From contig JAJYAT010000003.1 in NCBI GenBank assembly GCA_021779375.1, positions 62,001 through 126,000 of the forward strand: 64,000 nt of DNA, written 5' to 3'. Position 1 is the first letter of the stretch, and every line of letters begins with the position of its first letter. The stretch is from a bacterium (GTDB lineage: Bacteria > Patescibacteriota > Gracilibacteria > JAHISY01). The notes under the pieces were generated by a model. The model saw only the letters and a list, made by a program, of their open reading frames with translations, was not told the DNA's origin and searched no databases. The translations under genes and the position numbers were made by a program. This document shows, one piece after another, positions 55,670 through 58,082 of the stretch.

Positions 55670-56935
55670 TCAGCACTTCTTCAGAGCCTGCTCGAAATCA
55701 TCTCTGATGTCTTCGATGTGCTCGAGTCCGACAGAGACGCGAATCGTTTCTTCACTCACGCCAGCGGCGGCGAGTGCTGCTTTCGAAAGCTGCGAGTGTG
55801 AAGTCGAGGCGGGATGTAGGACGAGTGTCTTCGCGTCGCCGACATTCGCGAGGTGACTCGCGAGCTTGACCGACTCAATGAATTTTTTGCCGGCTGTGCG
55901 CCCTTTTTTCAAACCAAAAGTGAAGACTGAACCGAAACCGCCTTCGAAATATTTCAGCGCGTTTTCATTGAAAGGATGAGTCGGTAGTCCGACGAAATTA
56001 ACCCAGGCGACTTTGGGATGGTCGACCAGGAATCGCGCGAGTGCGTTGGCATTCTCCGAATGCTTGCGAATACGCAGTCCGAGCGTTTCGAGTCCGAGCA
56101 AAAATTGCCAAGAGTTGAAAGGCGAGAGGCAAGCGCCGAGATTGCGCAGACCGTCGACGCGCGCTTTCGTCGTGAAAGCCACTTTGCCGAGACTGGCGAA
56201 TTGCAGATCATGGTAGCTCGGGTCTTTTTGTGCGAAGAGCGGATTAACTCTCCAATCGAAATTACCACCGTCGACGACGATGCCCCCGATCGAAGTGCCG
56301 TGTCCGCCGATCCATTTCGTGAGTGAGTGAATGACGATGTTTGCACCGAATTCAATCGGTCGGCACAGCACCGGTGCGAAAGTATTGTCGACGATGACCG
56401 GCACTTTGAATTTCTTCGCGACTTTGGCGATCTCCGCGAAGTCGAGAACTTCGCCGGCAGGGTTGCCGATTGTCTCGAAATAAACTGCGCGCGTATTCCG
56501 CCGAATTAATTTTTCCAATTTTGCTGCAGAGAGCTTCTCGACGAATTCGACCTCGATGCCGAAGCGCGGCAAAGTGTGGCGGAACAAAGTTTCCGTGCCG
56601 CCGTAGAGTGCGGTCGAGGAAATAATGTGGTCGCCTTTTTGCGTCAAAGTTAAAATTGCCAAAGAAATTGCTGCCATGCCACTCGCGGTCGCGACTGCGG
56701 CTGATCCGCCTTCGAGCGCGGCGATGCGTTCCTCGAGCACGGCAGTCGTCGGGTTGCCCATGCGTGTGTAGATATTGCCGGCTTTTTTCAGCGCGAAAAG
56801 ATCGGCGGCTTCTTTGGTCGAGCCGAAGTCGAAACTCGCAGTTTGGTAAATCGGCGTCGCGCAAGCATTCGCCGCATTTTTGGCGCGGCCAGCGTGAATC
56901 GCGAGCGTCTCGGGATGTAATTTTTTTGAAGTCAT
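55670..56935 (-). CDS. metY: O-acetylhomoserine sulfhydrylase (aminocarboxypropyltransferase)
   Basis: MetY makes homocysteine (or methionine with methanethiol) from O-acylhomoserine, with PLP. The 421-residue product has LHPETLAIHAG, YTRMGNPTTAVLEERIAALEGG, SGMAAISLAILTL, the PLP-lysine motif VIHSLTKWIGGHGTSIGG near residue 208, and HPASTSHSQLS near 370. Length and the HP(A)STxHxQL end fit MetY rather than MetB. It lies 15 bases after metA, so metA-metY is an operon under the attenuator at 57900-58014. Confidence 0.93.
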   Translation of the reverse strand: MTSKKLHPETLAIHAGRAKNAANACATPIYQTASFDFGSTKEAADLFALKKAGNIYTRMGNPTTAVLEERIAALEGGSAAVATASGMAAISLAILTLTQKGDHIISSTALYGGTETLFRHTLPRFGIEVEFVEKLSAAKLEKLIRRNTRAVYFETIGNPAGEVLDFAEIAKVAKKFKVPVIVDNTFAPVLCRPIEFGANIVIHSLTKWIGGHGTSIGGIVVDGGNFDWRVNPLFAQKDPSYHDLQFASLGKVAFTTKARVDGLRNLGACLSPFNSWQFLLGLETLGLRIRKHSENANALARFLVDHPKVAWVNFVGLPTHPFNENALKYFEGGFGSVFTFGLKKGRTAGKKFIESVKLASHLANVGDAKTLVLHPASTSHSQLSKAALAAAGVSEETIRVSVGLEHIEDIRDDFEQALKKC

Positions 56936-56950: not shown

Positions 56951-57856
56951 TTAAAGTTTTTCGAGATCGAATGGTGTTTCCTGATAAACATAATAATTCA
57001 GCCAGTTCGAGAAAAGCAGCGTGGCATGCGCGCGCCAGCGCATTTGCGGCTGACCTTTTTCGTCGAAGTAATTCTCCGGCTCGGGGAAATTCGGATCTTT
57101 GGCGCGGTCGCGCTCGAATTCCGCCTGCAAAGTTTCGCGGTCGTATTCGGCGTGATTAAACGCGAAAATCTGGCGCAGCTTTTTGTTGCGCACGAGGTAA
57201 ATGCCAGCGTCTTTCGCGTCAGCGAGAATTTCGAGATCCTTCACTTTGCGTAGATCGACTTCGCGCGTTTCCGTATGGCGCGAGACCGGCACCCAAAAAT
57301 TCTCATCAAAACCGCGCAAGAGAATCGCATTTTTTTTGCGCGCTTTGTGCAAGAAGACGCCAAATTTTTTGCGTGGCAGTTTGTGTTTCGGGATTTTATA
57401 AAAATGCTGCAACGCCGCCTGTGCACCCCAGCAAATGAAAAGGCTCGAATAAACATTCGTCAGGCTCCAGTCCAAAATCCGCTTCAACTCGTCCCAGTAT
57501 TTCACCTCCTTCCAATCGAGCTGCTCGACTGGTGCACCCGTCACGATTAGTCCATCGAATTTGCGCGTCTTTACGCCTTCGAAAGTCTGGTAAAAATTGA
57601 CGAGGTGTTTTTCAGAAATATTTTTCGGACGATAGCTTTCCGTCGTGAGAAAAGTGAGATTGACCTGCAGTGGCGAATTGCCGAGCAGGCGCGCGAGCTG
57701 GGTCTCGGTCTCGATTTTGGTCGGCATGAGATTTAGTACGGCAATCTCGAGCGGACGAATGTCCTGCTTCGCCGCGCGTTTTTCTGGCATGACGAAAATA
57801 TTCTCGCGCTCGAGTAATTTCTTGGCGGGGAGTTGGTTGGGAATTTTGATTGGCAT
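56951..57856 (-). CDS. metA: homoserine O-acyltransferase (MetA family)
   Basis: MetA transfers an acetyl or succinyl group from CoA to homoserine. The 301-residue product (start ATG 57856, MPIKIPNQLPAKKLL) shows IAVLNLMPTKIETETQLARLLGN, FDGLIVTGAPVEQLDWKEVKYWDEL, the catalytic SLFICWGAQAALQHFY (Cys near residue 142), KKFGVFLHK, SRHTETR with the catalytic His region, and FNHAEYDRETL. MetY downstream suggests acetylation. The frame extends to 57949, but that part is the attenuator leader. No ribosome-binding site is seen at the ATG. Confidence 0.94.
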   Translation of the reverse strand: MPIKIPNQLPAKKLLERENIFVMPEKRAAKQDIRPLEIAVLNLMPTKIETETQLARLLGNSPLQVNLTFLTTESYRPKNISEKHLVNFYQTFEGVKTRKFDGLIVTGAPVEQLDWKEVKYWDELKRILDWSLTNVYSSLFICWGAQAALQHFYKIPKHKLPRKKFGVFLHKARKKNAILLRGFDENFWVPVSRHTETREVDLRKVKDLEILADAKDAGIYLVRNKKLRQIFAFNHAEYDRETLQAEFERDRAKDPNFPEPENYFDEKGQPQMRWRAHATLLFSNWLNYYVYQETPFDLEKL

Positions 57857-57899
57857 TTTGTAGTTGGTGGTTAGTAGTTTAGAGCTTTTAAAATTTTTT

Positions 57900-57925
57900 A
57901 AAAAAACCTCTCCGGGAGAGGTTGC
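57900..57925 (-). terminator. terminator arm of the metA attenuator (regions 3:4)
   Basis: Minus strand AACCTCTCC (57923-57915), one loop base, GGAGAGGTT (57913-57905), then a run of U to 57900. It lies 44 bases before the metA start, so it would end transcription before the gene. Confidence 0.85.
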
Positions 57926-57969
57926 CAGTTTTCCGCGCGCAAAAAGCAACCTCTCAGTTAGAGAGTTGC
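57905..57969 (-). promoter_or_regulatory. methionine transcription attenuator
   Basis: Four segments on the minus strand: region 1 GCAACTCTC (57969-57961), region 2 GAGAGGTTGC (57955-57946), region 3 GCAACCTCTCC (57925-57915), region 4 GGAGAGGTT (57913-57905). Regions 1:2 pair with a bulged G; 2:3 are exact complements over ten bases; 3:4 form the terminator. Region 1 lies inside the leader peptide gene right behind two Met codons, and the leader stop codon lies in the 1:2 loop. This is the layout of ribosome-mediated attenuation. Confidence 0.85.
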
Positions 57970-58001
57970 ATCATTTCGGCTGCGCAGTAGGAGTTTTTCA
58001 T
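57954..58001 (-). CDS. metA leader peptide
   Basis: A 15-codon frame, MKNSYCAAEMMQLSN, starting at ATG 58001 and ending at TGA 57956-57954. It starts 7 nt after TATAAT, like the leaderless genes of this window, so the ribosome could load at the mRNA 5' end. Codons 10 and 11 are both Met; codon 6 is Cys. If Met-tRNA is scarce the ribosome would stall on the Met pair and cover region 1 of the attenuator. Confidence 0.75.
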   Translation of the reverse strand: MKNSYCAAEMMQLSN

Positions 58002-58008
58002 CGAGGGA

Positions 58009-58036
58009 ATTATAGATTCTCTCTAGTTAAATGCAA
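58009..58036 (-). promoter_or_regulatory. metA leader promoter
   Basis: TATAAT (58014-58009) with TTGCAT (58036-58031) 16 nt upstream. Transcription would start at or beside the leader peptide ATG. Confidence 0.65.
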
Positions 58037-58082
58037 GTTGGAATTTCTTGGGCCGGTGAGTTGTCCAACCTTCAATCAAACT

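Follow-up and report, generated by a model that had tools for sequence, protein, structure and literature searches.

Leader peptides have been found beyond the Proteobacteria, and their repeated origin has been suggested (PMC2965389). In mycobacteria, leaderless poly-Cys attenuators are established (Canestrari et al. 2020, via PMC9031893). The mycobacterial cys leaders are without conserved terminator hairpins; in the Actinobacteria, poly-Cys leaders were described without terminators, and no RNA element was found upstream of methionine operons (PMC1262725). Several leaderless leaders have been reported in Streptomyces, and metL, which precedes metNIQ in Streptomyces lividans, is a weak candidate for methionine (PMC8079986). 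In the open-access literature, most subscription papers being outside our reach, we found no study linking Patescibacteria/CPR to leader-peptide attenuation, and a search of the same literature for a methionine leader or attenuator returned nothing relevant.

The window, as we call the whole 64,000-nucleotide stretch of DNA analysed here, contains an element in front of metA-metY which an earlier note, made from the sequence alone, had read as a complete attenuator of the trp/his type. That reading is supported by the recurrence of its Met codons and of its 2:3 and 3:4 complementarity in relatives. We conclude that the element is very likely a ribosome-mediated transcription attenuator of this type, which would sense the charging of Met-tRNA through translation of an apparently leaderless ORF. 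The conclusion is founded on the geometry and recurrence of the parts seen in the sequence, an excess of complementarity and the link to the methionine pathway, from which transcription start, translation, stalling and methionine-dependent termination are inferred.

The source genome of the window (G000; 1.07 Mb, 98% complete), which its kin place among the Patescibacteria (NCBI: Candidatus Peregrinibacteriota), carries metA and then metY downstream of the leader on the minus strand. The U-run ends ~45 nt before the operon, the ATG of metA lies at 57856, and the two genes are separated by an intergenic gap of 15 nt. Assignment of the first gene to the acetyltransferase type is marginal: it scores 460.9 bits on the NCBIfam homoserine O-acetyltransferase MetA model, whose cut-off is 460.5. 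TGA is recoded elsewhere in the same class (G061) and is a stop codon in G000; recoding in the window's genome was rejected, as metY ends with TGA at the end of the profile and the metA and metY matches contain no internal TGA. In one congener, G003, the operon order is metA-cysK-metY, with a cysteine synthase-like gene lying between the other two (L003).

As summarized in Table 1, the promoter described in the earlier note (TTGCAT-N16-TATAAT, with a 16 nt spacer) and, 7 nt farther on, the 15-codon Met-Met frame are all present on the minus strand. The frame reads ATG AAA AAC TCC TAC TGC GCA GCC GAA ATG ATG CAA CTC TCT AAC TGA. Over 10 bases, segment 3 is the exact reverse complement of segment 2, as had been claimed; the predicted duplex has an energy of -19.7 kcal/mol, compared with a shuffle mean of -7.3, and 0/500 shuffles were as good. 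The pairing of segment 3 with a segment 4 followed by U was also found, with the T-run reaching 57900. Two details required adjustment. A single G bulges out of the 1:2 pairing, which is otherwise present. The stop codon, which had been placed in the 1:2 loop, is only partly there, since TGA extends from the loop into the start of segment 2. The fold of the element as a whole is better than those of dinucleotide shuffles (z-score -2.96). A consensus scan by itself would not have revealed the element, since terminator-like matches are about equally common in shuffles. We considered a second terminator at 1:2, which is followed by TTTTTG in G000, and rejected it because the T-run is not kept (TTTTC in G002, TTCTT in G003); for the same reason, the 1:2 hairpin is more likely to serve in pausing or protection.

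Table 1. Features of the metA-metY attenuator region, in window coordinates
Feature	Position	Strand	Remarks
-35-like hexamer TTGCAT	58031..58036	-	Counterparts TTGCTT in G002, TTGCAT in G003
-10 hexamer TATAAT	58009..58014	-	7 nt (TCCCTCG) ahead of start codon; leaderless geometry
Leader ORF, 15 codons, MKNSYCAAEMMQLSN, TGA stop	57954..58001	-	Without Shine-Dalgarno sequence
Tandem Met codons (control codons)	57969..57974	-	All leaders retain MM or MMM
Segment 1 GCAACTCTC	57961..57969	-	Would be covered by ribosome stalled at second Met codon
Segment 2 GAGAGGTTGC	57946..57955	-	Putative antiterminator 5' arm; would be covered by ribosome at stop codon
Segment 3 GCAACCTCTC	57916..57925	-	Common to antiterminator and terminator
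Segment 4 GAGAGGTT and U-run	57900..57912	-	Segment 4 at 57912-57905, then T-run; intrinsic terminator 3:4
Extra helix, 5' arm inside leader ORF	57977..57987	-	Pairs with 2-3 spacer when ribosome absent (predicted)
Extra helix, 3' arm, 2-3 spacer	57933..57940	-	Equivalent helices, different sequence, in G002 and G003
metA, homoserine O-acyltransferase (acetyltransferase-type)	56951..57856	-	Pfam PF04204, E 2e-130; NCBIfam NF047918; first regulated gene
metY, O-acetylhomoserine sulfhydrylase (OAH/OAS)	55670..56935	-	Pfam PF01053; TIGR01326, E 6e-179; second gene

These parts suggest the following sequence of events. RNA polymerase would start at or within a few nt of the leader AUG, and the leader ORF would be translated as a leaderless mRNA. 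When charged Met-tRNA runs short, a ribosome would stall on the Met-Met codons and cover segment 1, leaving segment 2 free to pair with segment 3; the 2:3 helix would block the 3:4 terminator, and the polymerase would read on into metA-metY. With ample Met-tRNA, the ribosome would proceed to the stop codon and cover segment 2, allowing 3:4 to form and transcription to stop. In the absence of a ribosome, formation of 1:2 and 3:4 would stop transcription as well. A ribosome covers ~10 nt downstream of the codon in its A site. Across the leaders, 9-20 nt separate the last Met codon from the start of segment 2, so that with this codon in the A site a ribosome would hide segment 1 and free segment 2.

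We folded the uncovered RNA of eight leaders in the corresponding ribosome states. With a stalled ribosome and segment 4 not yet made, 2:3 was predicted in 8/8; with the ribosome at the stop codon, 3:4 was predicted, again in all eight. When the stalled state was folded at full length and equilibrium, 2:3 was kept in 6/8, and G005 and G138 favoured the terminator. The ribosome-free fold contained the 3:4 terminator in G000, G002, G003, G138, G140 and G319, and 2:3 in G005 and G144. These deviations, of G005 and G138 when stalled and of G005 and G144 without a ribosome, imply that timing during transcription must matter.

The model raises the question of how methionine can be sensed by translation that itself requires methionine to start, from the AUG of an ORF that looks leaderless. 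A shortage of methionine should also reduce the charging of initiator tRNA, which would counteract stalling at the control codons. This is the main conceptual difficulty, and it is unresolved. We infer that, with several control codons per leader, elongation may be the more sensitive step than initiation.

All three congeners with metA, G000 included, carry the element. Their leader peptides are MKNSYCAAEMMQLSN (G000), MTKSFRAIEMMQLS (G002) and MFSTRNSNAMMMQLS (G003), each with nine codons ahead of the Met run and a start codon 7 nt past the -10 hexamer, and G002 and G003 retain the promoter, the start, MM or MMM, and segments 1-4. The segments of G003 (GAGAGCTTGC for 2, (CT)AAGCTCTC for 3 and GAGAGCTT for 4) differ by a triple compensatory change at the matching position (2 G>C, 3 C>G, 4 G>C), which preserves both alternative helices; the remaining substitutions in the congeners' segments are G-U tolerant. 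The extra helix between the 5' part of the leader and the 2-3 spacer is kept with different sequence. Covariation, which the earlier note had named as a check, is suggestive of the alternative pairings in these alignments, and the support is modest, coming from three close sequences only.

To define recurrence more widely, metA was sought in 353 genomes of the class, which yielded 17 genes above the family cut-off, and a sample of the phylum added one from another class (G389); with 18 genes found in Patescibacteria, metA is rare in these bacteria. An automatic criterion was applied to the 400 nt upstream of each gene: an ORF of 6-45 codons with two adjacent internal Met codons, and an intrinsic terminator within 130 nt. 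As the criterion was set after the first sequences had been seen, identically scanned controls carry the weight. An earlier terminator criterion was dropped after missing G315 and misassigning the hairpins of G133 and G137, and its fold-based replacement was used equally on controls. A Met leader with a terminator preceded 14/18 of the Patescibacteria metA genes, compared with 0/78 metA genes of other bacteria (Firmicutes and others) and 19/2700 dinucleotide shuffles of the upstream regions (0.7%). In G140 the first gene behind the leader encodes a homocysteine S-methyltransferase and metA follows directly, which brings the number of operons to 15/18. No Met leader was found before metA in G162, G164 and G061.

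Every leader contains tandem Met codons, from MM to MMM, which are enriched over shuffles and over other bacteria, and in every case an intrinsic terminator lies between the leader ORF and the first gene. The runs are often richer in relatives (for example, MMQMMM and MMSMMM), and in G318 and G389 two leader-terminator units stand in tandem ahead of metA. Apart from the Met run, distant leader ORFs have little or no similarity to that of the window, as illustrated by MITTIFKSSAATMMMQMMMTSQMRGGVLI (G138), MLFRGFTAMMQMMMQFRSELGSF (G144), MKNIKVMMPMMINLLPKAS (G319) and MLNQLMQMAMMMLGMKISADLVRVPR (G315). The Met codons and the 2:3 and 3:4 complementarity are kept in both congeners and reappear, with unrelated sequence, in most other Patescibacteria metA operons; the comparison with relatives proposed in the earlier note came out in favour of its reading.

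The complementarity of segment 3 to the region between the Met codons and segment 3 was tested against shuffles, and most leaders showed an excess. In seven (G000, G002, G003, G137, G138, G139 and G144), only 0 or 1/500 shuffles did as well (p<=0.002). Values for other leaders were 0.006 (G133), 0.01 (G316), 0.018 (G319) and 0.04-0.05 (the first leader of G318, and G331); the excess over shuffles was not significant for G315, the second G318 leader and both G389 leaders. Combined by Fisher's method, the p-value was 3e-9 with one leader per genus (nine genera) and 3e-7 with one per family. According to the earlier note, relatives that keep metA but lose the Met codons or the 2:3 complementarity would refute its reading. 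Most relatives keep both, but three metA genes are without a leader, so that the element is not universal, and some leaders lack a significant 2:3 excess.

The apparently leaderless start which that note had suspected recurs in the two congeners and in most other Patescibacteria metA operons. A promoter with its -10 hexamer ending 6-10 nt ahead of the start codon was present in 12/16 first leaders, compared with 0.43 expected from shuffles. The distances were 7 nt in G000 and G005 (GTG start), 8 in G138 and G140, 9 in G315, G319 and G331, and 6 in G316 (GTG start), and this geometry recurs among families whose sequences are unrelated. As transcription usually starts ~7 nt past the -10, the 5' end of the transcript would be expected at the start codon or a few bases from it. 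We detected no Shine-Dalgarno-like sequence in any leader inspected. Promoter geometry and the absent Shine-Dalgarno sequence together support a leaderless ORF, in the absence of 5'-end data.

Three other accounts of the element deserve consideration. A 118-aa ORF (58439-58083) in the same orientation ends ~80 nt before the leader start, and the hairpins could merely terminate this upstream gene, the small ORF being accidental. The promoter, however, sits between that gene and the hairpins, and the element tracks metA and other Met genes rather than the upstream gene, which in G003 and G319 is divergent, so that the terminator can serve metA only; this explanation has next to no chance of being right. 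An unrecognised metabolite riboswitch or tRNA-binding leader of the SAM or T-box type, with incidental Met codons, might instead control the terminator, as Met genes elsewhere are usually so controlled and two of the control metA loci have a T-box or SAM riboswitch. Rfam covariance models, which detected those T-box and SAM elements in the control loci, gave no riboswitch, T-box or leader family at threshold in any of the 18 Patescibacteria loci, and a SAM riboswitch or T-box was rejected for the window element on this ground. Furthermore, the RNA from the start codon to segment 1 is unconserved between families, whereas the Met codons, the frame and the distance to segment 2 are kept, and we regard control of this kind as extremely unlikely.

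It is also conceivable that regulation depends on the nascent peptide or is coupled to translation in some other way (an arrest peptide, Rho polarity or metA initiation), and not on stalling at Met codons. Some leaders extend up to 15 codons beyond the Met run, with C-termini that are partly conserved (...MRTEMKVSVVAVSLN in G316, ...MRTEMQISGVVVSLH in G318). Yet peptides of different families have little in common except Met runs, the terminators are intrinsic in every case, and the geometry of the segments fits stalling at codons; we consider this possibility very unlikely. Attenuation by ribosomes stalled at Met codons remains the reading we prefer.

We also looked for leaders genome-wide. 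The pattern ATGATGNNNATGATG was too unspecific, also when combined with a T-run, and a tighter one, ATGATGNNNATGATGATG, worked; its other matches were mostly inside long ORFs or without a terminator. Met leaders with terminators were found before a lone metY in G005, which has no metA, and, in G294 and G310, ahead of genes for homocysteine S-methyltransferase. Two further leaders precede two-gene operons (L234 in G238, L235 in G370), in which the product of the first gene is similar to MmtN, a Met S-methyltransferase of solved structure (7vvv; E 3e-47 and 8e-24), and the second is a homocysteine S-methyltransferase, as judged by reading its sequence. The structure 7vvv was identified as MmtN in PMC9135737, where active MmtN was shown in such bacteria and an S-methylmethionine cycle was proposed; a Met leader ahead of an mmtN operon fits such a cycle. 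All assigned extra targets (metY, homocysteine S-methyltransferase and the mmtN operons) belong to methionine metabolism. A 329-aa target behind a Met leader in G314 (L236) had no Pfam, NCBIfam or PDB match. In G316, a FAD-type protein encoded behind metA is an unexplained target; a second Met leader, MYFNFLMMQALMRTEMKVSVVAVSLN (L097), lies between the two genes and resembles the second tandem leader of G318. From its sequence, this appears to be a duplicated or relocated attenuator unit.

Short poly-Cys ORFs followed by terminators were observed before cysK in G236 (L178), G294 (L179) and G134 (L180), and before a PF01053 gene in G325 (L183). Examples are MIYSQLISNCCCLSKEAPLES, MIPTASCICCCTIEHCSRAT and MRISLSATVCCCCCLI, the start of the last lying ~8 nt past TATACT. 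The background rate of CC with a terminator is ~2%, and the poly-Cys ORFs in the class are probable cysteine leader-peptide attenuators. In G318, a Ser-rich ORF, MTHILSSSKTSRRPSGKGRKEV, followed by a terminator precedes glyA, which encodes serine hydroxymethyltransferase (L092 minus strand / L243); it is a possible Ser leader.

Taken together, we think it likely that a whole sulfur-amino-acid regulon of Patescibacteria is under the control of leaderless leader-peptide attenuators, poly-Met at metA, metY, homocysteine S-methyltransferase and mmtN-homocysteine S-methyltransferase (some in tandem) and poly-Cys at cysK and a Cys/Met-metabolism PLP-enzyme gene. On that assessment the regulon would be without precedent for methionine leader peptides, and its members would be the first ribosome-mediated attenuators described in the phylum. 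Methionine would join the amino acids sensed by leader-peptide translation, with full attenuator parts and wide recurrence, and regulated expression of a classical kind would extend to ultra-small bacteria that are mostly uncultured and about whose regulation hardly anything is known. For the puzzling mmtN genes that these bacteria carry (PMC9135737), the link would be to methionine limitation and not to DMSP synthesis.

Like SAM riboswitches and Met T-boxes, the Patescibacteria leaders appear to control met genes in cis by premature termination; unlike them, no locus contains a matching RNA. They share with the E. coli trp, his, thr, leu and phe attenuators a short ORF with tandem control codons, mutually exclusive 2:3 and 3:4 pairings and a stop codon adjoining segment 2, and differ from E. 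coli leader attenuators in using Met as the control amino acid and in the apparently leaderless start without a Shine-Dalgarno sequence. No match to Leu_leader (RF00512) or its kin in Rfam reached the curated gathering score; L088, a leader from one distant relative, scores against Leu_leader only at E 0.11. S. lividans metL has likewise been proposed as a leaderless leader peptide for a methionine gene, but in its peptide, MSTTSDRTPATEATTTPGARCMCRRMCAF, the internal Met residues are just two and stand apart, alongside three Cys, and no typical Rho-independent terminator was identified (PMC8079986). The mycobacterial poly-cysteine attenuators resemble the Patescibacteria leaders in having a short ORF, apparently leaderless in the latter too, with contiguous sulfur-amino-acid codons before a biosynthetic operon; the Patescibacteria leaders are set apart by Met in place of Cys and by an intrinsic terminator with clear segments 1-4. 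These poly-Cys attenuators and the metL candidate temper the novelty asserted in the earlier note: the mechanism is classical, and it is the amino acid and the phylum that are new in this strength.
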